Below the pieces are notes generated by a model that was not told the DNA's origin, did no database searches, and saw only the letters and a list, made by a program, of their open reading frames with translations. A program made the translations under genes and the position numbers. 38,473 bases of DNA from Leptospiraceae bacterium. Its GTDB lineage: Bacteria > Spirochaetota > Leptospiria > Leptospirales > Leptospiraceae. Location: assembly GCA_947458405.1 (NCBI GenBank), contig CANGZW010000023.1:1-38473 (forward strand), read 5' to 3'. Position 1 is the stretch's first letter; each line of letters opens with the position of its first letter. Shown here piece by piece: positions 5,681-32,247 of this stretch.

Positions 5681-7747
5681 TTGGATAACTTACTATTCCA
5701 TATCATTTTTACAATTTTATTTGCAATAGCAAATATAGTCTTTGTTAGAGCAATTGTTTACAGAATGGGACTGGTTTTTCAGGGTCAGAAAGCCCATTTT
5801 CATGAAGATGTTAAATCCCATTCTAATTTAGGGTTCCGAATAAAAAGTATCATTGAAAATGTTCTCTTACAAAAGAAAAATTTTCAAGAACCCCTCCGTG
5901 GTGTAATGCATGCTTTTATTTTTTATGGATTTTTGATGTATTTACTGCATACAACCAATCAAATAGTCGCGGGTGTAGCTGGTTATTGGTTACATGATCC
6001 TTATGAATTTTCTTTGCTAGGTTTTATTCCATCTATTGCCTATGCCTATGAAGGGATTGTACAGGCTATATCTATATTTGTTCTTATCGGTTTAGGATTT
6101 TTTGCCCAAAGAAGATGGATTCAGAAGGCTAAAGGTTTGGACGTTCACTCTCCCGCTTCAGCCATTGTAATTTCGATGATAGCAACACTCATGATAACAA
6201 CACTTTTGGGTGAGGGTGCAAAGGTTATTTCAGCCACATATTCTATAAAAAATGGAGCTTTGAGAGAAGGCTTTCCTATCGCAATATTTATTTCACATAT
6301 TTGGACGAGTTTAGGAGTGGGTGGAGCCAGTGGAGATATTGCTTTTAAAATAATGTGGTGGGCACACATCGCTACTGTTTTTACTTTCATGCTATATGTT
6401 CCCACTTCTAAGCACGCACATTTAATTTTCGCTCCTGTAAACTACTTTCTCGCAACAGATACCCCAAAGGGTGCCCTTTCAAAAATTAATTTGGAAGATG
6501 AAAATGCTCTTTATGGTGCTAACAAAGTCCAAGATTTTCCATTTCCTAACCTTCTAGATGGTTTAGCCTGTATCGAGTGTGGTAGGTGTCAGGTTGAATG
6601 TCCTGCAAATCGAACTGGAAAAGTATTAAATCCTAAGGCAATTATAGTAGAATTAAAACATGCACTTATGGAGAGAATGCCAGAAGTTTCAGCCGCTAGA
6701 GCCAGTGGTAAGACAGCAGAAGAAATAATGGGAATAGAAACAAATGTAATCGGGAAATACATCTCTGAGGAAGCAATTTGGGGATGTACCACATGCTATG
6801 CTTGTGTTCAAGCATGTCCTGTTGGAAATAATCAGGTGAATGCTATAGTTGAGATGAGACGAAATCTTGTATTGGTAGAATCTAATTTTCCTGCTGAGTT
6901 ACAGGGAGCATTCTCTAACATGGAGACAAATTCAAACCCATGGGGCAGAGGTTCTCATACACGGGCTGATTGGGCAGAAGGGCTTGGTGTTAAAACATTA
7001 GCAGAGGATTCCAAAGTAGATGTGCTCTATTGGGTAGGTTGTGCGGGAGCATTTGATGATCGTAGCACAAAGACAGCCAAAGCATTTGTGAAAATTATGC
7101 AAAAAGCGGGTGTTAATTTTGGAATTCTTGGAACGGAAGAGGGATGTTCAGGAGATTCTGCTCGAAGGGGTGGAAATGAATATCTATACCAGACACTAGC
7201 TCAGACAAATGTCGATACCATGAATGGATACAATGTTCAAAAAATAGTAGCAACCTGTCCCCATTGTTTCAATACACTGAAAAATGAATACCCTCAATTT
7301 GGAGGTAATTTTGAGGTGAAACACCACAGCGAATTTATTAGAGAATTGATTGCTGAGGGTAAAATTGATGTCAGTGCAAATGCAGAAGACTTAGATAAGA
7401 CAACCACCTACCACGATCCTTGCTACTTAGGTCGATACAATGATAAGTATGAAGAACCTAGAGATCTTGTAAAAGTAGCCGGTGGTAATTTTGAGGAAGC
7501 CAGTGATCATCACTCTAAATCTCTCTGTTGCGGAGCGGGTGGAGCACAGATGTGGATGGAAGAACAAAACAATGATAGGGTAAATTTCAAAAGAACAGCC
7601 CAGTTATTGGAAACAGGAGCTTCCACAATTGCAGTAGGCTGTCCATTCTGTATGACCATGATAACCGATGGTGTCAAAAGTGCGGAGAGAATAGATACTG
7701 TCTCCGTAAAAGATATCGCCGAAATCGTAGCAGAACGCTTGGTTTAA
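5681..7747 (+). CDS. Membrane-bound FeS oxidoreductase with CCG domains (candidate ETF:menaquinone oxidoreductase)
   Basis: A 688-residue respiratory protein with a membrane domain (about 1-250; helices near 5-25, 72-92, 122-142, 160-180 and 222-242; His77, His90 and His229 could bind haem b). A cytoplasmic part has two 4Fe-4S motifs, CIECGRCQVECP (Cys297/300/303/307) and CTTCYACVQACP (Cys369/372/375/379). Two HdrB-type cysteine-rich CCG domains follow (Cys454, 489, 526, 529 and Cys581, 616, 617, 654, 657). This order is that of the DUF224 family, some members of which move electrons from electron transfer flavoprotein to menaquinone during fatty acid oxidation. That role is inferred; no etf gene is in the window. 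The start is TTG, chosen because GAGGT lies seven bases upstream. It is a single-gene unit closed by a terminator. Confidence 0.85.
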   Translation: MDNLLFHIIFTILFAIANIVFVRAIVYRMGLVFQGQKAHFHEDVKSHSNLGFRIKSIIENVLLQKKNFQEPLRGVMHAFIFYGFLMYLLHTTNQIVAGVAGYWLHDPYEFSLLGFIPSIAYAYEGIVQAISIFVLIGLGFFAQRRWIQKAKGLDVHSPASAIVISMIATLMITTLLGEGAKVISATYSIKNGALREGFPIAIFISHIWTSLGVGGASGDIAFKIMWWAHIATVFTFMLYVPTSKHAHLIFAPVNYFLATDTPKGALSKINLEDENALYGANKVQDFPFPNLLDGLACIECGRCQVECPANRTGKVLNPKAIIVELKHALMERMPEVSAARASGKTAEEIMGIETNVIGKYISEEAIWGCTTCYACVQACPVGNNQVNAIVEMRRNLVLVESNFPAELQGAFSNMETNSNPWGRGSHTRADWAEGLGVKTLAEDSKVDVLYWVGCAGAFDDRSTKTAKAFVKIMQKAGVNFGILGTEEGCSGDSARRGGNEYLYQTLAQTNVDTMNGYNVQKIVATCPHCFNTLKNEYPQFGGNFEVKHHSEFIRELIAEGKIDVSANAEDLDKTTTYHDPCYLGRYNDKYEEPRDLVKVAGGNFEEASDHHSKSLCCGAGGAQMWMEEQNNDRVNFKRTAQLLETGASTIAVGCPFCMTMITDGVKSAERIDTVSVKDIAEIVAERLV

Positions 7748-11567: not shown

Positions 11568-14327
11568 ATGATAGATTACAATAACAACAAATTAAAATTT
11601 CATGAGTCTGAATCAGAATGGATTCGGGGGTTTTCCTTAAAAGCTATCAAATGCTTAATTGTATGTCGGGGTCCCGTAAGAAAAGAAGCTATGGATGTCT
11701 TTGATGAAATCGGTATAAAAGAATACGGTATTCTTTTATCAGAAAAAGATTCAGTAGTGTATCCTCAAGCATTAGCACCAGAGACTAGGGGATTTAAATA
11801 CATCAACAATATTCATAGAGTTCCCGACTATATGGGATCAACCAAAGAAGAAAGAACAGAAAGAATCAAAGATATTATCGATATTGCCCTTAATAATGAA
11901 TATACCCATATTTTTGCAGGATATGGTTTTATGGCTGAAGATGCCGAGTTTATCGAAGCTATCGAAAAGTCTGGTATTACATTTATGGGTCCGGCATCTA
12001 GTGTCGCAAAACAGGCTGGCGCTAAAGATGAAGCCAAAAAAATTGCCAGAAAACTAAATGTTTCAGTAACTCCAGGAGTAGATAATATTACCGCATTGGC
12101 TTTATTATCTAAAGCTGGAGATAAAGATAAATTATTGGCAATAGCTAAAGAAAACAAACTTATTTTTAAATATAACGAAAATATTTCTCTCGAGGATAAT
12201 TCAGAAGTATTGCTTCAGTTGTCATACCATGCGGGTATTGATTTAATTTCTATTGAAGATTTACAGATTGAGGCTGAAAAACAATGCAGTGGAATCTGGA
12301 AAAATTATCCCAAAAATCGTATTAGATTAAAATATATCGGTGGTGGAGGAGGAAAAGGACAAAGGGTAATACAGTCCTCAGCCGAGATAAAGTCTGCAGT
12401 AATGGAAATTATTGCCGAATCAAAAGTAGTCAGCCAGGGTTCAAACAGGAACTTTTTAATTGAATTAAATATTGAAAATACCAGACATAACGAAATACAA
12501 TTAATTGGTAATGGAGAATGGTGTATTTCGTTAGGAGGAAGAGATTGTTCTTTGCAAATGCATGAACAAAAACTTTTAGAATTGTCGTACACATTAGAAT
12601 TATTTGAAGAAGAGATACGAGCCCACGCATCAAACCCGACTAGAGTTCAGATGCTTAAAGAGGATATGCAGATTCTAAAAGAAATGGAAGAGCAATCCGA
12701 AAGATTCGGGGAAGCAGTGAAACTCGATAGTGTCTCTACTTTTGAGTCTATAGTAGATGAAAAAAACCACTTCTTTATGGAAATGAATACACGCATACAA
12801 GTAGAGCATCGTGTTACAGAGATGGTTTATAAGCTAAAGTTTGCAAACTCAGCTAATAAATCTGAGTTTTTTATAATTGAAAGTTTAATTGAAGCTATGG
12901 CTCTTCTTTCTCTGCATGGCAAAAAATTAGCAAAACCGATAAGATTAGTGAGAAATATCGCTGGTGGGGAAGCAAGAATCAACGCTACCAATCAAAGTTT
13001 GCAACCCCACGCAGGTGGATTGATTCAAACATGGTCTCCTCCAATTGAATATGAGATTCGCGATGATCAGGGTATAGGCATAAAAAATCCGGATACAGGT
13101 ATTTTTATTCATTATAGATTAGCTGGAGCTTATGATTCGAATATTGCCTTATTAGTTTCTTACGGACAGACACGAAAAGAAATTTTAGAAAGATTATCTA
13201 ATATTATCAAAGTTACTGAATTACGGGGAAATGATCTTCAGACTAACATGCCTGTTCATTATGGTCTTATCAATTGGATTTTAGGTAAAGATCCTATGTT
13301 TAAACCTAACACAAGATTTATGCTATCTTATTTAGCCGGAGTAGGGTCCCTATTTTCAATTGCAAAGGATGTGGATCTTGAATTACTTTGGGAGACAAAA
13401 GTCAAAGAAATACAAAAAAGTGATGCTAATTTAGCAAAAATATTACTTAGAAAGTTAACTCTAATCACAAGACCCTTAAAACTCATTTTAGCTTCTCCTC
13501 ATGTTTTGGGAGGATTTTTGGGGTATCACAATAATAAATCATGGAAGATTGAAAATAGCAAAGTAATTTTCAAAATCAATCCTATTCATCTTTTAGAATC
13601 CCTATATGTTTATTTAGATTTAGAGGACTTACCCTCAAAAGCACCCTGTGATAAAATTTGGGATCATGACGAGAAGATTCTTGCAGAAGCAATTTCCTTT
13701 TATTCAGATTTAAATGAAATTTTAAAGACGAATTCTTATGAAGAGTTAAATCAAAATTTACTTAATGACAAAAATCCTACAAAAGGAGCTTTAAGCGATG
13801 AGTTATGGAAAAAATGTAGAGATTCTCATATATCTTTTCAAGTTGGCTTAGATCTGCTTAAAATTATACCAGCAGTCGGAGCTTTATCTGAATTCATAAA
13901 TATTGATATTAACGATTCCCTGGATGCGGTCGTCCCTGAAAAATTTACAAATCCTGAGTCCATCAAAGAATTTGTTAAAGGACTAAATCCTCCCCCTAAA
14001 GCTAAATCGGATGAAATAGTTGCTCCTATGGGTGGAATGTTTTATTGTAGAGAGGCACCTAATTTGCCTCCAATAATTAATGAAGGAGATACTTTTAAAG
14101 CAGGTCAGCCTTTATTTATAATTGAAGTAATGAAGATGTTTAATAAAATATCAGCTCCTTTTAGTGGAAAAGTTGTAAAACATAACTTAAAAGATTCCGA
14201 TGGGAAGATTGTATCAAAAGGGCAACTTATATTTAAAGTCGAGCCCGATGAAATACTAAAAGAAGAATCTTTAGAAGAAATTACATCCAGGAAAAAGTCA
14301 GTTTTGGTAGCTTTACTTAAATATTAG
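11568..14327 (+). CDS. Biotin carboxylase fused to a C-terminal biotinyl domain (acyl-CoA carboxylase alpha-type)
   Basis: A 919-residue protein that should carboxylate its own biotin using ATP and bicarbonate and hand the carboxyl to the carboxyltransferase encoded just upstream. The N-terminal biotin carboxylase has GYGFMAED (118-125), the ATP-grasp glycine loop GGGGGKGQR (258-266), RDCSLQ with QK (325-335) and MNTRIQVEH (406-414, catalytic Arg409). The biotinyl domain at the C-terminus has EVMKMF with Lys856 as the attachment site. Two things are unusual. About 45-50 extra residues precede the glycine loop (roughly 172-245). About 300 residues of unrecognised sequence lie between the carboxylase and biotinyl domains. 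The conserved IQVEHPVTEM reads IQVEHRVTEM here. AGGGAG lies 11 bases before the ATG, inside the preceding gene. Confidence 0.88.
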   Translation: MIDYNNNKLKFHESESEWIRGFSLKAIKCLIVCRGPVRKEAMDVFDEIGIKEYGILLSEKDSVVYPQALAPETRGFKYINNIHRVPDYMGSTKEERTERIKDIIDIALNNEYTHIFAGYGFMAEDAEFIEAIEKSGITFMGPASSVAKQAGAKDEAKKIARKLNVSVTPGVDNITALALLSKAGDKDKLLAIAKENKLIFKYNENISLEDNSEVLLQLSYHAGIDLISIEDLQIEAEKQCSGIWKNYPKNRIRLKYIGGGGGKGQRVIQSSAEIKSAVMEIIAESKVVSQGSNRNFLIELNIENTRHNEIQLIGNGEWCISLGGRDCSLQMHEQKLLELSYTLELFEEEIRAHASNPTRVQMLKEDMQILKEMEEQSERFGEAVKLDSVSTFESIVDEKNHFFMEMNTRIQVEHRVTEMVYKLKFANSANKSEFFIIESLIEAMALLSLHGKKLAKPIRLVRNIAGGEARINATNQSLQPHAGGLIQTWSPPIEYEIRDDQGIGIKNPDTGIFIHYRLAGAYDSNIALLVSYGQTRKEILERLSNIIKVTELRGNDLQTNMPVHYGLINWILGKDPMFKPNTRFMLSYLAGVGSLFSIAKDVDLELLWETKVKEIQKSDANLAKILLRKLTLITRPLKLILASPHVLGGFLGYHNNKSWKIENSKVIFKINPIHLLESLYVYLDLEDLPSKAPCDKIWDHDEKILAEAISFYSDLNEILKTNSYEELNQNLLNDKNPTKGALSDELWKKCRDSHISFQVGLDLLKIIPAVGALSEFINIDINDSLDAVVPEKFTNPESIKEFVKGLNPPPKAKSDEIVAPMGGMFYCREAPNLPPIINEGDTFKAGQPLFIIEVMKMFNKISAPFSGKVVKHNLKDSDGKIVSKGQLIFKVEPDEILKEESLEEITSRKKSVLVALLKY

Positions 14328-14655
14328 AGGAAAATCACTGACTATTGACATAGAAAATCAACCTTATACAAAATAAAAATATAATAGGAAAAATTAAATT
14401 TTAAGGTTTTTGCATTTACTAATTAGTGGATTTATTTAGTACTACAAAAATATCTTGAAATTTAAAATACATTTTTTTATTTGAGTATGGAAGGTAATTC
14501 TTCTCTGTTTTCTTATAAATATTACCTAATTGTATAGTTAGGTGAAAATTGTATCTATTCCTATTCTATTTTTAAAATTTGAGTAGATATTAAAGTGTTT
14601 ATTTTTTTAAAGTAAAAATTGCGTTTTGAAAGACGTTTTAAGGAGTCGATTGTAA
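14328..14655. other. 328-base gene-free region upstream of the act operon
   Basis: No ORF with a ribosome binding site, no tRNA and no clear terminator is visible here. The stretch is very AT-rich. TTGACA at 14345-14350 is a perfect -35 box, but the nearest -10-like sequences (TATACA at 14365, TACAAA at 14367) give spacers of 14 or 16 bases. TTGAAA at 14455-14460 has TATTTG 17 bases on. A dyad lies at 14524-14543. AGGAG at 14641-14645, ten bases before the actA ATG, is the ribosome binding site. The region probably holds the act promoter and a long leader, or a small RNA that I cannot identify. Confidence 0.5.
14524..14543. promoter_or_regulatory. Dyad symmetry element upstream of actA
   Basis: ACCTAA and TTAGGT are exact inverted repeats separated by eight bases (TTGTATAG). 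The element lies 112 bases before the actA start. It could be an operator for a dimeric regulator or a small hairpin in the leader. No T-run follows, so it is not a terminator. Function unproven. Confidence 0.35.
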
Positions 14656-15174
14656 ATGAACGTACGTGCGATCAAAGTTTCATTTCCTTTGTTAATAGTG
14701 GCCGGTTTAGCCTATTTGCTATTCTCGCCAGCAAAGTATGTAGGGTATGCACCCGATCAACCCATACCCTTTAATCACAAGCTTCATGCTGGGGACAATA
14801 AGATTGATTGTAGATATTGTCACACATCCGTTGAAAAATCAGCCCATGCGAGCGTTCCTCCCTCAGCTACCTGTATGAATTGTCACAGTGAGCAATATGG
14901 TGGGGCTGGTAAAGGTAGACCCCATGTAGAAATTCTTAAGAAATACCATAAAGAAGATAAGCCAATTCAATGGATTAAAGTTCACGATCAGCCAGATTTC
15001 GTTTATTTTAACCATTCTAGGCATATTTCCCGAGGTGTAGATTGTTCTCATTGCCATGGTAACGTCGCAGAAATGGAAATAATTAAACAGGTTGAAACCC
15101 TGAACATGGGATACTGTGTAAATTGTCACCGGGAAAACAATGCACCGAATGACTGTTCAACTTGCCACCGCTAA
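14656..15174 (+). CDS. actA: Alternative complex III subunit ActA, membrane-anchored pentahaem cytochrome c
   Basis: ActA is the multihaem cytochrome c of the quinol-oxidising alternative complex III. The 172 residues have one N-terminal membrane anchor (about 8-25) and five CxxCH haem-binding motifs: 52-56, 73-77, 130-134, 154-158 and 167-171. Further His residues (His41, His44, His120, His123 and others) can serve as sixth ligands. The family signatures PIPFNHKLHAG and FNHSRHISRGVDC are the usual pattern of the class III/c7-type cytochromes. The haem-bearing part should lie in the periplasm. It is the first gene of the act operon, with AGGAG ten bases upstream, and actB follows after 23 bases. 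Confidence 0.93.
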   Translation: MNVRAIKVSFPLLIVAGLAYLLFSPAKYVGYAPDQPIPFNHKLHAGDNKIDCRYCHTSVEKSAHASVPPSATCMNCHSEQYGGAGKGRPHVEILKKYHKEDKPIQWIKVHDQPDFVYFNHSRHISRGVDCSHCHGNVAEMEIIKQVETLNMGYCVNCHRENNAPNDCSTCHR

Positions 15175-15197
15175 ACAATATTAGGAGAGACAACTCA

Positions 15198-18100
15198 ATG
15201 TCTGAAAATAAAAATTTTCAAGAAGAAAAAAAGAGCCATTGGCAATCTTTTGAATTAAAAGACAACAAAGAATTAAGAAAAATTCAAAACCAAGAATTTT
15301 ATACTTCCCCTGACCCGGTTATTAATAGAATAAAAACAGGTGATTACGATCGTAAGACTTTCTTAAAGTTAATGGGAGCTTCCTCTCTCATGATGACCGC
15401 TAACTGTATTCCACAAAAACCAGAAAAAATCGTTCCTTATGTTAATAAACCTGATTTTATGGTTCCTGGTCTTGCTAACTATTATGCTTCATCCTGTGGA
15501 GGTTGTGATGCAGGCTGTGGTATATTGGTAAAAACCAAAGATGGTCGTCCTTTAAAATTAGAAGGAAACCCAAAGCATCCACTCAACAAAGGTGCTATTT
15601 GTGCAACAGGACAGGCTTCTATCTTGAATCTTTACGATCCAGATAGAGCTCAGACTCCACTCAAAATTACCAACGGATCCGAAGAAGCTATCTCTTGGAA
15701 AGATTTAGACTCTGCTATTTTAAAAGCATTATCTGAAAATTCAGGCAAAACTAGAGTAGTTACTGGTACCATAAATTCACCCGGAACTAAAAAAATAATC
15801 GATGAGTTTATATCTAAAACAGGGGGCGGAAGGCACTTACAAGTGAATTTAACTTCTCCTGAAGAATCAATTGCAATAGCTGCGGACAAGTCCTATGGTA
15901 AGGCAGTTGTTCCTAATTATAGATTTGATAAAGCTAGAGTTATTTTATCATTAGATGCAGATTTTCTAGGAACTTGGATTTCTCCGGTTGAATTCTCAAG
16001 ACAGTTTGGATCTAGAAGAAACTTAGAAAATAAAGAAAAATTTACATCATTAATTTCTGTTGATACAATGCCGAGCGTTACTAGCTCAAATGCAGAAATT
16101 CGAGTTCCCGTAAAACCAACAGATGTAAGAAAAGTTGCTCTATTGATTGCAAAAGCTATCAGTGATTTAGGTGGAACTTCTTACGGTCAACTAAATGATA
16201 TAAGTTTAGATTCTCTTTCTAGTAATTTAGAAATAGAACTATCTACAATTAAAAAAATAGCTAAAATATTATGGGATGCTAGAGGTGAATCACTCGTCGT
16301 TGGATCATCTTTTACATCTGAGGCAGTTGATTTACAGATAGCAGTCAATTTGCTGAACTCTATGCTCGATAATGATGGAAAGGCAGTAGATCATGGTAAC
16401 CCCAGAACAGGAGGATTTTCATCCTCTTCTGATCTAAGTTCTTTGGAAAAAGATTTAGAAGCTGGTGAGGTTGGAGTACTATTCTTTTATAACATAAACC
16501 CAATTTATCAGTTACCCGATGCGTCAGGTTGGAAAGGAAAATTCTCTAAAGCAAAATTAATAGTCTCTTTAAATGATAGAATAGATGAGACAACACAAAT
16601 TTCCAGTTACCTGGCTCCTTCTAATCATTTTCTAGAAGCATGGGGTGATCGTGAATCTGTAGAAGGTGTTATTAGCATTCAACAACCAACGATTCAACCT
16701 TTGTATGCTACTAGAGCCTTTGAAGATTCTTTGATCACTTGGGCTGGTGGTGAATTAGCAGGTTCTAAAACGCACTATGAATACTTAAAATCAAATTATT
16801 CTAAGACTACCAATTGGGTCGATTTCCTAAAAGGTGGTTTTATAAACAAAGCTGATTTAGAAGGAAATAAGCCATCTAGAGGATTTAAAGGTTCTGTTGA
16901 AAAATTAGCAGATAAAAAAGATGGATTAGTCTTAGCTCTCTATAGCACGGTAGCTCTGGGAGATGGAACCCATGCAAACAACTCTGTTCTCCAAGAATTG
17001 CCCGATCCTGTAACCAAAGTTACCTGGGATAATTTTGTGGCTATCTCACCTGATACAGCTAACAAAAGAAACTTAAAATCTAATGATGTGGTTAAGGTTA
17101 CAATTGCATCCAGCCAAGAGTTGATTCTTCCTGTACAAGTTCAGCCCGGAATTCACAAGGACACTATTGCAATAGCAATAGGATATGGAAGAACATCGGC
17201 TGGAAGAGTAGGGAATGGTGTAGGTAAAAATTCTTACAATCTCTCCAGTTATTCTGCAGGTTCCCTTCAACTTGCAGGACAAACTGTTGAAATTTCAGGT
17301 ACGGGTAAAACTTATAAATTAGCAACTACCCAAGATCATCATATGATGAATCCTGGAAACAATCCATTAGGTATAAAATACAAGGATAGGGCATTGGTAC
17401 TTACTGCTACACTTGCAGAATACACTGCTAATCCAAAAGTAAATACAGAAAAGGCTGATCCAGAATTTCCGTTATTAAATAAGGTTACTGGTGTAAAGCC
17501 TCATGAATACCCTGTTAAAACAAAAGTAAGCAATATTGATGGTCAAGAATACAATGAAGCAAGAGGATTCAATCCTGATTTTGAATACAAAGGCTACCGT
17601 TGGGGACTCTCTATTGATTTGACCCTCTGTACCGGTTGTTCGGCTTGTGTTGTAGCCTGTCAGATTGAGAACAATGTGCCTGTAGTAGGAAGAGACGAAG
17701 TTCGAGTCGGTAGAGAGATGCATTGGCTCCGAATTGATAGGTACTACATAGGGGATGAAAATAAGCCAGAATCTATTGAAATTGGACACCTTCCAGTTAT
17801 GTGCCAGCATTGTGAAAATGCTCCTTGTGAAACTGTATGCCCTGTAGCGGCAACTGTTCATGGTAGCGAAGGGACAAATGATATGGTTTACAACAGATGT
17901 GTTGGAACTAGATATTGCTCCAACAATTGTCCTTACAAGGTAAGAAGATTCAATTGGATGGAACATTGGAAAGATGGAAAAGATTTCGCAAGATCGCCAA
18001 GAAACTTAGCATTCAATCCTGAAGTTACAGTTAGATCAAGAGGAGTAATGGAAAAGTGTACTTTCTGTTCTTCTAGAGTAGCTGAAAAGAAAATTAGAGC

Positions 18101-18323
18101 TAAAAATGAAGGAAGAACACTGAGAGACGGTGAACTCAAATCAGCTTGTCAGGAAACTTGTCCAACAGATGCAATTTCATTTGGTAACACAAATGATAAA
18201 GAATCTAAAGTTTCCAAGCAATTTACTGATCCTAGAAACTATAGAATCTTAGATTTCTTAAATGTTAGACCACAGGTTGCTTACCTAACTAGAGTTCGTA
18301 ACCATATGAAGGAGAGTGTATAA
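15198..18323 (+). CDS. actB: Alternative complex III subunit ActB, molybdopterin-like and iron-sulfur protein
   Basis: The large periplasmic subunit, 1041 residues. The N-terminal two thirds resemble molybdopterin oxidoreductases, with SCGGCDAGCG at 99-108 and a further Cys at 135; in this family the fold binds no molybdenum. The C-terminal third is a four-cluster ferredoxin domain: CTGCSACVVAC (811-821), CQHCENAPCETVCP (from 869), CVGTRYCSNNCP, then CTFCSSR and CQETCP. A Tat-like export signal has DRKTFLKLMGAS (51-62), with Arg-Lys rather than twin Arg, then TANC with Cys70 a possible lipidation site. I chose the ATG at 15198 because AGGAGA lies nine bases upstream; the longer frame starts with TTG inside actA. 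Confidence 0.93.
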   Translation: MSENKNFQEEKKSHWQSFELKDNKELRKIQNQEFYTSPDPVINRIKTGDYDRKTFLKLMGASSLMMTANCIPQKPEKIVPYVNKPDFMVPGLANYYASSCGGCDAGCGILVKTKDGRPLKLEGNPKHPLNKGAICATGQASILNLYDPDRAQTPLKITNGSEEAISWKDLDSAILKALSENSGKTRVVTGTINSPGTKKIIDEFISKTGGGRHLQVNLTSPEESIAIAADKSYGKAVVPNYRFDKARVILSLDADFLGTWISPVEFSRQFGSRRNLENKEKFTSLISVDTMPSVTSSNAEIRVPVKPTDVRKVALLIAKAISDLGGTSYGQLNDISLDSLSSNLEIELSTIKKIAKILWDARGESLVVGSSFTSEAVDLQIAVNLLNSMLDNDGKAVDHGNPRTGGFSSSSDLSSLEKDLEAGEVGVLFFYNINPIYQLPDASGWKGKFSKAKLIVSLNDRIDETTQISSYLAPSNHFLEAWGDRESVEGVISIQQPTIQPLYATRAFEDSLITWAGGELAGSKTHYEYLKSNYSKTTNWVDFLKGGFINKADLEGNKPSRGFKGSVEKLADKKDGLVLALYSTVALGDGTHANNSVLQELPDPVTKVTWDNFVAISPDTANKRNLKSNDVVKVTIASSQELILPVQVQPGIHKDTIAIAIGYGRTSAGRVGNGVGKNSYNLSSYSAGSLQLAGQTVEISGTGKTYKLATTQDHHMMNPGNNPLGIKYKDRALVLTATLAEYTANPKVNTEKADPEFPLLNKVTGVKPHEYPVKTKVSNIDGQEYNEARGFNPDFEYKGYRWGLSIDLTLCTGCSACVVACQIENNVPVVGRDEVRVGREMHWLRIDRYYIGDENKPESIEIGHLPVMCQHCENAPCETVCPVAATVHGSEGTNDMVYNRCVGTRYCSNNCPYKVRRFNWMEHWKDGKDFARSPRNLAFNPEVTVRSRGVMEKCTFCSSRVAEKKIRAKNEGRTLRDGELKSACQETCPTDAISFGNTNDKESKVSKQFTDPRNYRILDFLNVRPQVAYLTRVRNHMKESV

Positions 18324-18326
18324 GAT

Positions 18327-19736
18327 ATGTCCATGACAACTTTAGTCAAAGAAAAGTTAGGTATAGTTCCCCTCGTAGAAGGGGATAAGACCTACAAACA
18401 AGTAACCGAAGAGATTCTTAAACCAACTGATTCATTTCCTACATCACTATGGTGGAAAGCATTCCTATTAGCTTTAACAATTACTATCGTGGATATAGGT
18501 ATTATTGGTTACTTATGTTACGAGGGTCTCTGGATTTTAGGAGTAAATAATCCTGTGGGTTGGGGATTTTTTATTGTTAACTTCGTATTCTGGATTGGGA
18601 TTGGGCACGCAGGGACTTTGATTTCCGCTGTTCTTTTTCTTTTTAGACAGGGTTGGAGAACTGGTATTAACAGAGCGGCTGAGGCCATGACGATTTTTGC
18701 CGTTCTAACAGCTGCTACAACACTTATTATACATATCGGTCGTCCCTGGTTAGGATTTTGGTTATTCCCCTACCCAAATAACAGAGGACCACTTTGGGTA
18801 AATTTTAGATCTCCTTTAATTTGGGATACTTTTGCAGTGTCTACTTATCTCTCTATATCATTGGTATTTTGGTACATTGGACTTGTGCCCGATATCGCGG
18901 CTTTGAGAGATAGATGCACTCATAAAGTTAAAAAGATGATTTATTCTGCAATGTCCTTAGGTTGGGTCGGATCGAACAGGGCCTGGTCACATTATGAAAT
19001 CGTATGTATGTTATTAGCCGCTCTTTCAACTCCTTTAGTATTGTCCGTGCATACTATCGTGAGTTTTGACTTTGCTGTTTCTATTCTACCTGGATGGCAT
19101 ACTACAATTTTACCGCCTTATTTCGTTGCTGGAGCGGTTTTTTCTGGATTTGCAATGGTTGTAACACTTATGGTTATTGCCAGAGAAGTTTTCAATCTCA
19201 AACAGTATATTACCCTTAAGCATTTGGAAAACATGAATAAAATTATCATGGTTACAGGTTTGATGGTAGGTTATGCTTATGGATCAGAATTTTTTATAGC
19301 ATGGTATTCTGGAAATGAATACGAAGGATTTACTTTTGTAAACAGAGCTTTTGGACCCTATGCTTGGGCCTATTGGATTATGATTTCTTGTAACGTTTTG
19401 TCTCCTCAGGTATTCTGGTTTGAGAGCAATCGAAGAAACATAAAAGTAATGTTTATAGTATCCATTTTTGTAAATATTGGGATGTGGTTTGAAAGATTCG
19501 TGATTGTTATGACAACACACAGAGATTTCTTGCCATCTAATTGGGCTCTATATATTCCTACATTCTATGATTTTGCAATGTTAATTGGAACATTCGGTAT
19601 ATTCTTTACACTTTTCTTACTCTTTTGTAGAATTTTGCCTATTATCGCAATGGCAGAAGTAAAAACAGTCATGCCGCATGCCCACGCAAATGCTCATGCT
19701 CACAAAGAAGTAATAAAAGAAGGAGTAAAACACTAA
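18327..19736 (+). CDS. actC: Alternative complex III subunit ActC, NrfD-like integral membrane protein
   Basis: A 469-residue NrfD/PsrC-like protein with about ten membrane helices, the quinol-interacting membrane core of alternative complex III. Characteristic stretches are [21 protein letters not shown] (near 91-111), [16 protein letters not shown] and [20 protein letters not shown], all typical of ActC. AAGGAGAG lies ten bases before the ATG, and another ATG is two codons inside. The C-terminal tail is His-rich (six His within about 20 residues, ending at His469), which is outside the conserved fold. It is preceded by actB with three bases between and followed one base later by actD. Confidence 0.94.
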
Positions 19737-19737
19737 A

Positions 19738-20289
19738 ATGTATTGGTTTAAAAAAGAACAATTTCATACATACCAAGAAACTACCAATGGTGTTTTTGGT
19801 TTATTTGATACTCCGGAAGAAATTTTAGAAGCGGCAGAAAAAACCAAAGAAAAAAAATACACAGGATTTGATTGCCTCACACCATTTCCTGTTCATGGCT
19901 TAGATGAAGCTATGGGCTTACCGAGATCTGGAATACCATGGATTAGTTTTTTCATGGGTTTGGTAGGTTGTAGTTTTGGATTTGCGTTTCAATACCTTAC
20001 ACATGTTGTAGATTGGCCAATCAATTACTCTGGAAAAGCATACAATGCATGGCCTGCCTATATTCCTGTAACCTTTGAAACTACTGTATTTTTTGCAGGT
20101 ATGAGTGCGGTGGTATCTCTCTATGCTCTCTCTAAATCTAATCATGGATTTAGAAAGCCTTTGCATCCTGAAATAACAAGCCATAGATTTGCGCTTTGGA
20201 TTCCATCTTCCTCTGATAATTTCAAACAAGAAGAAGTAGTTAATTTTATAAAATCGCTCGGTGCGAAAGATGTCACGGTGGTAAAGTAA
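19738..20289 (+). CDS. actD: Alternative complex III subunit ActD (DUF3341)
   Basis: A 183-residue subunit with a cytoplasmic N-terminal ferredoxin-like domain (about 15-60; GVFGLFDTPEEIL and FDCLTPFPVHGLDEAMGL are typical) and two membrane helices (about 66-88 and 108-130), between which lies WPINYSGKAYNAWPAYIPVTFE, a strong family signature. It packs beside the NrfD-like subunits and has no cofactor motif. The ATG is one base after the actC stop, with AGGAG twelve bases upstream. actE begins three bases after its stop. Confidence 0.93.
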   Translation: MYWFKKEQFHTYQETTNGVFGLFDTPEEILEAAEKTKEKKYTGFDCLTPFPVHGLDEAMGLPRSGIPWISFFMGLVGCSFGFAFQYLTHVVDWPINYSGKAYNAWPAYIPVTFETTVFFAGMSAVVSLYALSKSNHGFRKPLHPEITSHRFALWIPSSSDNFKQEEVVNFIKSLGAKDVTVVK

Positions 20290-20292
20290 GAA

Positions 20293-20934
20293 ATGAATAA
20301 TTTAAATTTAAATAATAAGTTGATGACTCTACTTTTAATAGCCAGTTTTTTTCTAATTGGTTGTGATAAAAAAAGTCCTGAATGGGAGTATTTTCCGGAC
20401 ATGTACGATTCTCCAGCCAGAGAAGCTCAAGAATATGATCCTACAGCTCCCAATAAAGTTGGAGGAAGACTCCCTGTAGAAGGTACGATACCAGTTGAAT
20501 ATACTCCATACCAGCTTAGTGGTCCTAACTTAGATGATCAAAGAGTTAAGGATTTAAAAATTCCTGAGGGTATCAAGCTCACAGAATTAAACCTCAAAAG
20601 AGGGGAGACTCAATTTCAAGTATTTTGCTATCCCTGTCATGGCCCTCAAGGGGAAGGAAATGGTCCAGTTATTGGACCTCCAGGTGGCGGAAAATTTAAC
20701 TATAGTCCTAATATGAATATTCACGGAACATATGCGTATTTGAATGATGGTCAAATTTACCATGTAATAACCAATGGAAATGGGCAAATGCCTGCCTATG
20801 CATCTATGATTTCAGAGGAAGACAGATGGAAAATTGTTCTCTATGTCAGGAAGCTAAAGGAAACATATGTACTATTGGCACAGGCAAAAACTGCACCTGC
20901 AGAAAATGCTGAGCCTAAGAAGGATGGGAATTAA
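20293..20934 (+). CDS. actE: Alternative complex III subunit ActE, monohaem cytochrome c lipoprotein
   Basis: A 213-residue lipoprotein cytochrome. The signal peptide ends in the lipobox LIGC with Cys24 as the lipid attachment site, so the protein should be tethered on the periplasmic side. The single haem motif CYPCH is at 112-116 and Met166 in NGQMPAYA is the likely sixth ligand. The start of the mature part, PEWEYFPDMYDSPA, is a signature of ActE. It should pass electrons from ActA/ActB to a terminal oxidase or soluble cytochrome. The last 20 residues form a low-complexity Ala/Glu/Lys tail. It follows actD after three bases. Confidence 0.93.
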   Translation: MNNLNLNNKLMTLLLIASFFLIGCDKKSPEWEYFPDMYDSPAREAQEYDPTAPNKVGGRLPVEGTIPVEYTPYQLSGPNLDDQRVKDLKIPEGIKLTELNLKRGETQFQVFCYPCHGPQGEGNGPVIGPPGGGKFNYSPNMNIHGTYAYLNDGQIYHVITNGNGQMPAYASMISEEDRWKIVLYVRKLKETYVLLAQAKTAPAENAEPKKDGN

Positions 20935-20940
20935 TTCGGT

Positions 20941-22167
20941 ATGAAAGTGGAATACAACGATAATCAAATCACTTACAAAATGCCATCAGCAACTAGGGGA
21001 TGGCTACTCGGTATGATAACAATAGGAGTAATTTCTCTATTAATATCATTTCTAATTTTAAATAAAAATCCCGATCTTTCAAAATCTGGTCATAGTAATT
21101 TAGGATGGTCTGTGCTTTTAATCAGCCTTTTCATTCCCTTTGGTGTTTCAATTTGTGGTCTCTTTTTTACTGCAATTAGTCATATAACAGGATCTCATTG
21201 GTCGATCACTGTAAGACGGCTAGCTGAAAATTACTCCAGATTTTTACCAGTTGCCTTTGTAATACTTGCAGTCTTGGTACTCTTAGGAGTTCATGATATT
21301 TACGAATGGTCGCATGTGGATGTTGTCGAAAAGGATCATCTTTTAAAACACAAAGCAGGTTGGTTAAATGAACCATTTTTTCCAATTCGACTTATTTTGA
21401 TCTCTGGAATATGGATATTTTTTGGTCATTTATTCCTTAAAAACTCAGTGAAACAGGATGAAACAAAAGATGTAGATTTAAGCCTCAAAAATACTAAACT
21501 ATCTGCAATCTTTTTGCTAGTATTTGCTATTACATTTTCAATTGTTGCCTATGATTTGTTGATGTCTTTAACTCCCCATTGGTTCTCTACTATGTGGGCT
21601 ATATATATCTTTGCGGGAATTTATCAGTCAACTTTTGCAACTTTCCTTCTATTTGTGCATCATTTAAAGAAAAATGGTTTCTACGGAAGTGCTGTAAATG
21701 AAAATCATATTCATGACTTAGCAAAATTTATGATGTCATTTTGTATATTTTGGGCATATGTTGGTTTTTCTCAGTTTATGCTCATCTGGTATGCTAACTT
21801 ACCAGAAGAAACCTTTTTCTACGAGTTGAGGCTGATGGGTGGATGGACAACATTCTCCTACGCTTTGCCTTTTATCAAATTTATAATTCCATTCTTACTA
21901 CTTGTAAATCGTCCAAACAAGAGAGATATAGATTTTTTAGCAAAAGTTTCTGTATGGATTTTATTTACCGAGTTTATTGAAATTTTCTGGATCGTTATCC
22001 CAAGTAACTTTGAAAGTTTTGATGTTATTACACTAATTGTCAGTTTAGGTGCTAGTGTAGGTTTACTAGGATTGTTTGGATTTTCAGTCTTAAAAGGAAT
22101 GGAAAAATCAAAAATAATTCCTGTGGGCGATCCAAGATTAGAAGAATGTCTACACCACCATCAATAG
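20941..22167 (+). CDS. actF: Alternative complex III subunit ActF, second NrfD-like membrane subunit
   Basis: A 408-residue polytopic membrane protein, a shorter paralogue of ActC lacking its N-terminal extension. About ten helices are visible. Conserved family stretches include CGLFFTAISHITGSHWSITVRR (near 77-98), AYDLLMSLTPHWFSTMWAIY and FWAYVGFSQFMLIWYANLPEET. In related complexes ActF lacks the quinol site but forms a membrane half-channel. The protein ends in three His and a Gln. It starts six bases after actE with only weak GGAA upstream, so it may depend on translation of actE. A small lipoprotein gene follows after eight bases. Confidence 0.92.
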   Translation: MKVEYNDNQITYKMPSATRGWLLGMITIGVISLLISFLILNKNPDLSKSGHSNLGWSVLLISLFIPFGVSICGLFFTAISHITGSHWSITVRRLAENYSRFLPVAFVILAVLVLLGVHDIYEWSHVDVVEKDHLLKHKAGWLNEPFFPIRLILISGIWIFFGHLFLKNSVKQDETKDVDLSLKNTKLSAIFLLVFAITFSIVAYDLLMSLTPHWFSTMWAIYIFAGIYQSTFATFLLFVHHLKKNGFYGSAVNENHIHDLAKFMMSFCIFWAYVGFSQFMLIWYANLPEETFFYELRLMGGWTTFSYALPFIKFIIPFLLLVNRPNKRDIDFLAKVSVWILFTEFIEIFWIVIPSNFESFDVITLIVSLGASVGLLGLFGFSVLKGMEKSKIIPVGDPRLEECLHHHQ

Positions 22168-22175
22168 GAGAAAAG

Positions 22176-22598
22176 ATGAGATACATAATTATAATACTTA
22201 CTATCTTATTTCTTGCAAATTGCTCGAAAAAAGCTCATATTACATGGGATACTAAGCTCTTTTCTGATGAAAATTTGGAAAAAGAAATTGGAGAGATTAA
22301 AAAAGGAACAATTGTTGACGCGCTTGATTTTATACATCATGGATGGTCAGTGAGAGATAGTATAAAGATTCAACATGAAGGAAAAGTTGGTTATATCAGT
22401 CCAAGAGCTGCTGTTATTGACCAAGATCCTAATAATTCTGTTTACACATGGGGACATAGGAAAGATTACAAATACTTCTATGATCCTAACGACAAAGAAC
22501 ACTTTCCAAAAGGTTTTGAGCATCCAGCTGTGAAAAATCTATCTAAAGAGAAAATTCCATTTGAAAAAATAATGGAAAATGTAACAGTTCAAGAATAA
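22176..22598 (+). CDS. Small SH3-like lipoprotein, seventh gene of the act operon
   Basis: A 140-residue predicted lipoprotein. The start at 22176 is chosen for AGGAG five bases upstream (22166-22170); a longer frame begins inside actF without one. A short signal peptide of Ile/Leu ends in LANC, so Cys16 is the likely lipid site; Asn before Cys is tolerated in spirochaete lipoboxes. Residues 25-80 look like a bacterial SH3 domain: FSDENLEKEIGEIKKGTIVDALDF, then KIQHEGKVGYISPRAAV. The last 60 residues are charged, with several His, Lys and aromatic residues. The gene is in the act operon, eight bases after actF, and a terminator follows, so it may be an accessory or assembly factor of alternative complex III. 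No function is known to me. Confidence 0.72.
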   Translation: MRYIIIILTILFLANCSKKAHITWDTKLFSDENLEKEIGEIKKGTIVDALDFIHHGWSVRDSIKIQHEGKVGYISPRAAVIDQDPNNSVYTWGHRKDYKYFYDPNDKEHFPKGFEHPAVKNLSKEKIPFEKIMENVTVQE

Positions 22599-22610
22599 TA
22601 TCTATCAGTA

Positions 22611-22655
22611 AAATCTCATCCCTAAGAAGGATGAGATTTCAAATTTCAATAATTT
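22611..22655. terminator. Terminator at the convergent end of the act operon and the phosphatase operon
   Basis: AAATCTCATCC (22611-22621), a seven-base loop and GGATGAGATTT (22629-22639) form a perfect 11-bp stem, followed on the plus strand by CAAATTTCAATAATTTTT. The right arm touches the stop codon of the minus-strand phosphatase gene, so the hairpin could serve both directions. Confidence 0.85.
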
Positions 22656-23412
22656 TTAATAAAATAAACGATAAATTATCTAATCCAGAATATTTTAAGG
22701 AAAATTGTGCAAGTGTCTTACACAATTCTTCTTCACTTATAATCTCTCTAAAAAAACTTTTAAATTTTTCAATAGGAATTCCCTCCCATAAACCATCTGA
22801 ACAGATTAAAAATCTTGTTCCTATTTTGTACTTCACTATTTGATTTGATATCTTGGGAATTCGATCTTTATCATCCCCAATAATTGCGGAAGTTAAAATA
22901 TTTTTACCTTTGTGTAGTCTTATTTGATCCTCAGTAATTTCCCCATTTTTAAACATTGAAAAAACTTCTGAGTCATCTTCCGTAATACGAACTAAATCAT
23001 CAGAGTCTATTTGATAAACTCTAGAATCTCCACAATTAAAAATAATCCCTTTATTTTTTAATAGAAGGATTCCACTTAAAGTAGTACCCATTCCATAACT
23101 ATTATTGTTTTTAGCTATATCACTTAATTTTTTCTGAGAGTTAAGAATAGTATTTTTTAGGTCTTTTTCCGTCTTAATATTATTTTTATTATCCCGCAAA
23201 TAACTTAATATAGAATGGCTAGCTAGTTCTCCTTTTGCATGTCCTCCCATGCCATCTGCAATTGCAAAGATTGCATTTTGAGTAGATATGATTTGTGTTG
23301 AGAATGAATCCATTCCCTTTGTTTGGAATATTTTATCATCGACTAATAAAGTGTCTTCATTTATAGATCTGTAATTACCTACATGTGTAAAATAAAAAGA
23401 TTTAATTATCAT
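22639..23412 (-). CDS. PP2C-family serine/threonine protein phosphatase
   Basis: A 257-residue cytoplasmic metal-dependent phosphatase of the Stp/PrpC type. Metal-binding and catalytic motifs are all present: VGNYRSINEDT (11-21, Asp20), IADGMGGHAKGELAS (51-65, Asp53), GMGTTLSGILL, GDSRVYQI, ICSDGLWEG and, at the C-terminus, DNLSFILL. It has no membrane or sensor domain. The ATG overlaps the helicase stop as ATGA, so translation is coupled. No serine/threonine kinase is in the window, so its substrates are unknown; HPr phosphorylated on Ser elsewhere in this window is handled by HPr kinase/phosphorylase itself. Confidence 0.92.
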   Translation of the reverse strand: MIIKSFYFTHVGNYRSINEDTLLVDDKIFQTKGMDSFSTQIISTQNAIFAIADGMGGHAKGELASHSILSYLRDNKNNIKTEKDLKNTILNSQKKLSDIAKNNNSYGMGTTLSGILLLKNKGIIFNCGDSRVYQIDSDDLVRITEDDSEVFSMFKNGEITEDQIRLHKGKNILTSAIIGDDKDRIPKISNQIVKYKIGTRFLICSDGLWEGIPIEKFKSFFREIISEEELCKTLAQFSLKYSGLDNLSFILLKIIEI

Positions 23413-25372: not shown

Positions 25373-25972
25373 TTATTCTGGAGACCACTTTTTATATAAA
25401 TCGGTTTCAATTCCTATTAAATTAAATACTCTAGAAGCAATAAAATCTCCCAAATCATCCAGACTTTTGGGGAGCTGGTAGAAACCAGGGGAAGCTGGAA
25501 GAATAATTGCACCGGCTTGGTCAAGAGATAGCATATTTTTTAGGTGAATTTGATTATATGGAGTTTCTCGTGGAACCAAGATAAGTCTTCTTCTTTCTTT
25601 AAGTGTTACGTCAGCACATCTTTCAATTAAATTTTCAGTCAATCCTGCATTTATTGAAGCAATAGTTTTCATGGAACATGGTAGTACAACCATAGAAGAC
25701 CATGTGTTTGATCCAGAAGCAATATCTGCTCCTATATCTCCAAATGGTCTAATGTGAATTTTATTTTTTACATCTACATTCCATTTCTCTATAACAAAAT
25801 CTAATATATCTTGCGGGCTACCCACTTTTATTGTGTACTCTTCTCGAAAAATTCTTATGGACGCCGGACTTACAATTAGAAATGTTTCTCCTTCTAGTTC
25901 TAATAATTTTTTTAAAAATCGAGCAGGGTAGATCGAACCCGAGGCACCTGCAATTCCTAAAACTATCTTCAT
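25373..25972 (-). CDS. ubiX: UbiX-type flavin prenyltransferase
   Basis: Makes prenylated FMN, the cofactor of UbiD-type decarboxylases. The 199 residues match the family: the FMN-binding [14 protein letters not shown] (7-20), [44 protein letters not shown] and the prenyl-phosphate-binding [15 protein letters not shown]. The ATG overlaps the stop of the prenyltransferase gene as ATGA. Next to a UbiA-like gene it most likely serves menaquinone synthesis, either as the futalosine-route component (often called MqnM) or with a UbiD partner; no ubiD-like gene is in the window. Confidence 0.92.
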
Positions 25973-26871
25973 TTTAAATTACCCATGTATAATTGTAACT
26001 CATTCCACTTATCAAACAAAATTCCTAAAAATAGTACTATTGAAATTGAAGCATTAATGTGAAAAAAGGCAATAGGAACTTTACTTAAATCATTTTTATT
26101 AACCATTAAATGTTCAATTGTAAATAAAATTCCTGCAATAATTAAAAATATATAATAATAGTTATTCATTGAGCTTATAATACCTGCGTAGAATAATAAA
26201 GAAAATGCAAGTAAATGATTAATTCTAGCTATGTTTAATGATAAGCTCAATCCAAATCTAGAGGGAATAGAATATAGGTTATTCATTTTGTCATACTCCA
26301 TATCCTGTGTGGAATATAAAATATCAAATCCTGCTATATGGAACATTAATCCCATCGTCCAAATAAATGGTATTATGGATATTTCACCAGTAATAGCTGT
26401 CCAAGCACCACTAGGTGCTAAGCCAATCCCTATCCCCAGTATATAATGACAAAACCAGGTAAATCTTTTTGTATAACTGTAAATCAATATAATAAATAGT
26501 GTAGGAATTGATGCATAAAAGCAAAATATATTTAAGAAATAAGTACTGATTATAAAAATAAATGAAAATAAAATAGTAAAAGTGATTACTGAGGTATTTG
26601 AAAGAATTCCCGCAGGAAGTTCTCTATTCTTGGTTCTAGGATTATGTTTATCAATTTCTTTATCTACAAATCTATTAAATCCCATAGCCGCATTTCTTGC
26701 ACTAACCATGCAGAGTAGTATTAATATACTTTTTAAATATAATTCTTCTTTAGATAAAGTTGTATTAAGTATTGCAATTATCATCGCAAGTCCTGCAAAT
26801 GGTAAGGCAAATAGTGTATGGGAAAATTTTACCATCTTTCCATAATTATTTAAAATATTTAATATATTCAT
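25969..26871 (-). CDS. UbiA-family aromatic prenyltransferase (quinone biosynthesis, MqnP/UbiA-like)
   Basis: A 300-residue integral membrane prenyltransferase with about eight or nine helices. The first Asp-rich motif is [10 protein letters not shown] (65-74), the second is [10 protein letters not shown] (186-195); they bind the polyprenyl diphosphate through magnesium. [13 protein letters not shown] (76-88) is the typical loop after motif 1. It should attach a polyprenyl chain to an aromatic acid in quinone synthesis. Pairing with ubiX, and the menaquinone-dependent systems in this window, favour a menaquinone role. I do not assign a symbol because UbiA and MqnP cannot be separated by eye. 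It starts five bases after the antiporter stop. Confidence 0.87.
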
Positions 26872-31698: not shown

Positions 31699-32247
31699 AT
31701 GAAAAAATATATTGAATTATATTTAATAATATTATTAATAATATTTTTACATTGCAAAAAAGACACTACAATAAGAGTTAATGAAGTTGAAAAAGAGCAT
31801 GGTTCCACAATTACAATTAAAAATTTTCAGAGAACGGCAATAGATTCAAAAGGTAATCTTTTATGGAAATTAAATGCTGAAGAAACTTATTATTTTAAAA
31901 AAAATGATAGATCAATTCTTTACAATATACAAGTAGAGCAATATGAAAATGGAAAAATTAAATCAAAAATAAAAGCCGATAAAGGGGAAATCTTAAAAAA
32001 AGAAAACTTAATTAAAGCATTTGGAAATATTTATATGAAATCTACTGATGGAAAAATTCTTGAAGCAGAAGAAATTGAGATGAATACCGAAACAAATACT
32101 TTATCGTCTGACAAAAAAGTATTAATTAAATCTTCAGGAACTGTAATACGAGGAGTTGGCTTAATTGCAGATAATTCTTTAAACAAATATAAAATTTTAA
32201 AGCCAGAAGGTATTACATCTGGAGGAAGTAATCCCCTTGAAAAATAA
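31699..32247 (+). CDS. lptC: LptC-like LPS export protein
   Basis: A 182-residue envelope protein, probably the periplasmic bridge component that links the inner-membrane LPS transporter to LptA. A hydrophobic N-terminus (about 4-18) ends in FLHC at Cys19; this is a weak lipobox, so it may be an uncleaved anchor as in other LptC proteins. The rest is beta-rich with the OstA/LptC pattern: IKNFQRTAIDSKGNLLWKLNAEE, IKADKGEILKKENLIKAFGNIYM and LEAEEIEMNTETNTLSSDKKV. I place the start at 31699; in-frame ATGs at 31675 and 31636 are possible but overlap or lie close to kdsA and none has a good Shine-Dalgarno. The assignment rests on fold-like repeats plus position between kdsA and lptB. Confidence 0.8.
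   Translation: MKKYIELYLIILLIIFLHCKKDTTIRVNEVEKEHGSTITIKNFQRTAIDSKGNLLWKLNAEETYYFKKNDRSILYNIQVEQYENGKIKSKIKADKGEILKKENLIKAFGNIYMKSTDGKILEAEEIEMNTETNTLSSDKKVLIKSSGTVIRGVGLIADNSLNKYKILKPEGITSGGSNPLEK

Follow-up and report, generated by a model that had tools for sequence, protein, structure and literature searches.

An Lsa16-family lipoprotein gene at the end of the act operon in Leptospiraceae and its possible role in alternative complex III

Why does a gene for a small lipoprotein directly follow the genes for a respiratory enzyme? This question is raised by a 38,473-nucleotide contig (CANGZW010000023.1, assembly GCA_947458405.1; here called the window) from an uncultured member of the Leptospiraceae, in which an open reading frame at 22176-22598 on the + strand begins immediately after actF, the last of six genes for alternative complex III (ACIII). 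A first-pass annotation of the window proposed that the encoded protein is an unrecognised ACIII subunit or assembly factor. The functional link to ACIII gained support from all six informative relatives, but the protein itself proved to belong to a family already known through Lsa16, described as an adhesin of Leptospira interrogans. We consider it likely that the Lsa16-family lipoprotein works with ACIII, either as an accessory subunit or as an assembly factor.

Position, linkage and distribution of the gene

The reading frame starts with ATG and encodes 140 amino acids. It is a real gene, with homologues in six other genomes (38-46% identity, E values of 1e-23 to 1e-40), and its product matches NCBIfam NF047704, "Lsa16 family lipoprotein adhesin" (2.2e-29; 102.4 bits versus a cut-off of 80), as do the proteins of all six relatives. 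Eight bases separate it from the actF stop codon (TAG, 22165-22167). The Shine-Dalgarno sequence AGGAG (22166-22170, + strand) overlaps this stop codon and lies 5 nt upstream of the ATG, which agrees with the initial description of a strong ribosome binding site eight bases after actF. Similarly short gaps with a Shine-Dalgarno sequence are found in relatives. Measured across five genomes, those of the window and of four relatives, the distance from actF is 8, 9, 9, 8, and 14 bp.

The operon terminator that had been placed after the gene is less clear-cut. Between the gene and a convergent gene for a PP2C phosphatase lies a strong hairpin, probably a terminator (22611-22639; -13.9 kcal/mol, z -3.65), but it lacks a clear T-run on the + strand, and a consensus scan from 14300 to 22700 did not find a terminator-like site on that strand. 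A bidirectional terminator between the convergent genes is therefore plausible, though not textbook.

If the gene belongs with act, it should follow actF in relatives as well. Homologues are carried by six of seven other Leptospiraceae genomes, and in the seventh actF is cut by the end of a contig. In each of the six informative relatives, whose contigs run past actF, the homologue lies directly 3' of actF; the opposite pattern, in which most relatives would carry the homologue at a distance from act, was not seen. Beyond actA on one side and the Lsa16-family gene on the other, a gene-by-gene comparison of five loci shows flanks unlike those of the window, apart from one helicase (locus L054). 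A passenger gene, unrelated to either ACIII or adhesion, is thus unlikely, because the linkage has been retained across the sampled genera amid reshuffled surroundings and at an ActF identity of about 57%. The consistent location after actF, together with the locus number of the L. interrogans gene discussed below, gives strong support to a functional connection with ACIII.

Profile searches place the family within the Leptospiraceae. NF047704 scores above its cut-off in exactly 7 of the 48 genomes of the class, in a single copy each and always in this family, and the model scores these seven copies far above everything else. Weak profile matches in G003 contig 62 and in G040 were rejected as orthologues; they are a 456-residue protein with a similar N-terminal lipoprotein and SH3-like region and an unrelated 229-residue lipoprotein. 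A genome-wide pattern scan with the single window protein did not find relatives, and the same scan with the family alignment returned five records at the contig positions of the homologues from the genome search. No Lsa16-family homologue was found in any of the searched genomes of the sister family or the next family, though nearly all sister-family genomes have actF. The gene thus appears to be a regular, Leptospiraceae-specific last member of the act operon, and its restriction to one lineage indicates that its product would not be a general ACIII component. Furthermore, pairwise divergence of the protein across five genomes tracks that of ActA, ActB, and ActC (r of 0.90, 0.93, and 0.96, respectively).

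Sister-family genomes have genes for a cytochrome c lipoprotein and an unassigned multi-pass membrane protein after actF, and the next family has riboflavin synthase there. The sister-family pair makes up another accessory module at the position that Lsa16 occupies in the Leptospiraceae (L018, L023, L024, L027, L030, L031, L036, and other loci of the same order). At some of these loci, the cytochrome c lipoprotein carries two or more haem motifs.

Predicted structure and comparison with known extra subunits

The description of the product as a lipoprotein of 140 residues agrees with the length of the reading frame and with its hydrophobic N-terminus, a signal peptide that ends in the lipobox LANC-SKK. 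Lipidation is predicted at Cys16 (codon 22221-22223, + strand), which is invariant in seven of seven aligned members. The asparagine at -1 is non-classical, and it recurs before the invariant cysteine in relatives and in a lipobox-like motif of ActB from the window genome and relatives. This cysteine is the only invariant one in the family, and no cofactor motif was seen.

Structure prediction is in line with the early assignment of an SH3-like fold. AlphaFold2, run on seven sequences, gives a beta barrel at about residues 18-81 (22227-22418, + strand) with pLDDT values of about 82-88, apart from one weak block at residues 51-60 (54). In this run, and again in one with a second family member as the query, the barrel is followed by a C-terminal tail predicted with low confidence. 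The best Foldseek matches are SH3 domains, the top one from Clostridium, and all are weak, with none below an E value of 0.001. The Pfam family SH3_3 (PF08239) is matched by five of the seven members at E<=1 (best E of 1.9e-7), and the match of the window protein is marginal and below the cut-off (E value of 0.055; 14.1 bits versus 27). A Pfam RelE match (E of 0.095 for the window protein, 2e-4 at best) was rejected because the window protein falls below the cut-off and is exported. A sequence search of the Protein Data Bank did not find meaningful relatives, including any match to an ACIII chain.

The most conserved segment of the protein lies outside the barrel. Residues 97-114 (DYKYFYDPNDKEHFPKGF; 22464-22517, + strand) have a mean pairwise identity of 0.66, versus 0.50 for the barrel, and fall inside the C-terminal tail, which is predicted to be unfolded in isolation (pLDDT mostly 40-46). 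A conserved stretch that is predicted not to fold alone has the appearance of a docking element, a reading limited by the alignment of seven sequences. Our working model is that the gene is expressed on one transcript with actA-F and translated right after ActF. The protein would then be exported, lipidated on Cys16, and held at the periplasmic side, where the conserved tail would dock on the electron-transfer module formed by ActA, ActB, and ActE. The barrel could stabilise the module itself, the process of its assembly, or the contact that it makes with either a redox partner or the cell wall.

Bacterial SH3 domains of the SH3_3 kind often bind the cell wall. Given these relatives and the Clostridium domain as the best fold match, the barrel might bind peptidoglycan and so position ACIII or a supercomplex. 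Such a tether is compatible with an accessory role in ACIII, but we give it low probability because no fold match is strong (all have E values above 0.001) and the roles of SH3 barrels are diverse.

An additional ACIII component would have precedent. The canonical complex had been taken to be ActA-F, which holds for the core, but further subunits have already been reported: the periplasmic ActH and an unassigned periplasmic subunit in Rhodothermus marinus, and ActG as an optional product of some act clusters (PMC5928083). ActH (Rmar_1979) is the closest parallel in position, since it sits on the ActA/ActB/ActE side and inserts a long loop into the cleft between these subunits (PMC5928083), which is comparable to the conserved tail proposed here. 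However, ActH is a three-helix bundle, whereas the Lsa16-family protein has a predicted all-beta core and no sequence match to 6F0K chains was found; identity with ActH was therefore rejected. ActG is likewise encoded by an optional extra gene of some act clusters, but it is an integral protein with a single transmembrane helix. Identity with ActG was also rejected, because the sole hydrophobic stretch of the lipoprotein is its signal peptide, which ends in a lipobox with an invariant cysteine. The unassigned R. marinus subunit is solvent exposed on the periplasmic side, above or near ActE (PMC5928083). The novelty here lies in connecting Lsa16 with ACIII and in the lineage-restricted architecture.

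Lsa16 of L. interrogans: adhesin or respiratory component

Lsa16 is LIC10879 of L. interrogans and was published as a surface adhesin and vaccine candidate (PMC7662565). Family membership and gene order mark the window gene as its apparent Leptospiraceae orthologue. Published product names allow the neighbourhood of LIC10879 to be reconstructed. LIC10873 corresponds to LA_3268 (PMC5348505), LIC10874 is a molybdopterin oxidoreductase of 113.6 kDa (PMC8659334, PMC5979558), and LIC10877 and LIC10879 are a cytochrome c and a putative lipoprotein (PMC5553009). In the LA numbering, LA3268 is a cytochrome c3, LA3267 and LA3266 are molybdopterin oxidoreductases, LA3265 is hypothetical, LA3264 is a monohaem cytochrome c, and LA3263 is hypothetical (PMC2964297). 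The products of LIC10873-10878 (LA3268-3263) thus stand in the exact order actA-B-C-D-E-F, and Lsa16 carries the next number. From these locus numbers and product names, we infer that Lsa16 closes the act operon of L. interrogans as well.

We did not find a literature statement that places Lsa16 after act genes, and where Leptospira and alternative complex III occur in the same paper, the mention is in passing only and no substantive link was found. Separately, contact with macrophages reportedly lowered the expression of all of LA3263-LA3268 by about 4- to 12-fold, in a study that annotated them as hypothetical or molybdopterin proteins and not as ACIII (PMC2964297).

The published function of Lsa16 is host adhesion, whereas its operon context points to respiration. 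Recombinant Lsa16 reportedly binds laminin, plasminogen, fibrinogen, and E-cadherin (PMC7662565, PMC8657130), and the NCBIfam family name includes "adhesin", so the protein might be a genuine outer membrane surface adhesin that merely shares the act transcript. The residue after the lipidated cysteine also fits this possibility, in that it is Ser, Gly, or Ala and not acidic; for ActE, four of the five genomes compared show D or E at this position. However, ActB lacks an acidic +2 residue too, so this position does not discriminate. Moreover, the recombinant protein was obtained by refolding insoluble material (PMC7662565) and heat denaturation raises its binding to E-cadherin (PMC8657130), which suggests non-specific binding. 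ActB itself is among the top surface-biotinylated proteins (PMC8659334), an indication that surface assays leak in the genus Leptospira. Finally, uncultured Leptospiraceae known from metagenome-assembled genomes retain the family, always beside act. On balance, we regard an adhesin that only shares the transcript as improbable; the adhesin label may be an in vitro by-product, or adhesion may be a secondary activity.

Several observations nevertheless weigh against a role in ACIII. In published work, Lsa16 is counted as a protein of the outer membrane (PMC7662565). In host-adapted cells, spots of LIC10879 went up (2.4 and 1.75) and those of the cytochrome c LIC10877 went down (-1.78 and -1.55) (PMC5553009), a lack of parallel abundance in one proteomic study that would suit a passenger gene. 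Likewise, the list of genes down-regulated in the macrophage array includes LA3263-3268 but not LA3262, the number expected for Lsa16 (PMC2964297). The divergence correlation with ActD across the same five genomes is poor (0.36). The difference in conservation between the whole tail and the barrel is not significant (p of 0.14), such that only residues 97-114 stand out. Lastly, the absence of the protein from sister families that have ACIII indicates that it is not needed for catalysis.

This last point also bears on what kind of partner the protein might be. A small, operon-linked protein that is dispensable over the wider distribution of ACIII, without a cofactor motif and with the lipidation site as its single invariant cysteine, could act solely in assembly or maturation (for example, in the insertion of haem, Fe-S clusters, or lipoproteins) and stay outside the finished enzyme. 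We judge this narrower form of the accessory role to be rather unlikely, though less so than the other alternatives; nothing specific speaks against it, and sister families assemble ACIII without Lsa16. A stoichiometric subunit is a better candidate and comes close to an even chance. Slightly more tentative is the fuller proposal that Lsa16 is a dedicated Leptospiraceae subunit that combines a lipid anchor, an SH3-like barrel, and a docking tail in a new architecture, and whose adhesin activity is an in vitro artefact or secondary. The fixed place beside respiratory genes suggests that the real job of Lsa16 lies in ACIII. If so, a tested vaccine antigen that work on leptospirosis cites as an adhesin would be mainly a respiratory chain component, and its binding, expression, and vaccine data would be read differently. 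ACIII, in turn, would gain an accessory periplasmic lipoprotein and a defined gene to delete.

The act operon and its surroundings

The six genes upstream, all on the + strand, encode a genuine ACIII on the evidence of their sequences. They have the order actABCDEF with an ActD-family gene, and ActB and ActF match chains of solved ACIII structures (6F0K, 6LOD, 6BTM, and 8K9E). The actA gene (14656-15174) encodes a pentahaem cytochrome c (five CxxCH motifs; Pfam Cytochrome_C7) and is followed by actB (15198-18323), for a molybdopterin-oxidoreductase-like plus Fe-S subunit that matches 6lod_B, 6f0k_B, 8k9e_B, and 6btm_B with E values of 4e-151 or better. The NrfD-type membrane subunit is encoded by actC (18327-19736; Pfam NrfD, 2.9e-26), and actD spans 19738-20289 (PF11821 ActD, 5.3e-55). 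The product of actE (20293-20934) is a monohaem cytochrome c lipoprotein with one CxxCH motif and the lipobox LIGC (Pfam Cytochrome_CBB3, 1e-12), and actF (20941-22167) matches 6f0k_F (2.4e-57) and 6btm_F (4.5e-52). A search of the source genome (198 contigs, 96% complete) with PF13631 did not find a bc1-type cytochrome b, and haem-copper oxidase genes are present; ACIII is thus probably its only complex III.

The window ActB has a modified Tat signal, DRKTFLKLMG, about 50 residues past its start (RK rather than RR), followed by the lipobox-like motif TANC. Because a modified Tat motif with a long prefix has already been described for LIC_10874 of Leptospira (PMC4758666), this trait extends to an uncultured relative.

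Genes for a UbiX-family protein and a UbiA/MqnP-like prenyltransferase (menaquinone type) lie at 25373-26871, at a distance of about 3-5 kb from the operon for the menaquinol-oxidising ACIII. At 5681-7747, a membrane protein of 688 residues has an Fe-S/heterodisulfide-reductase-like region (HdrD/TfrB-like) and is probably another quinone-linked oxidoreductase. Finally, the N-terminus of an LptC homologue (31699-32247) resembles a lipoprotein signal (IIFLHC-KK) rather than a plain membrane anchor.
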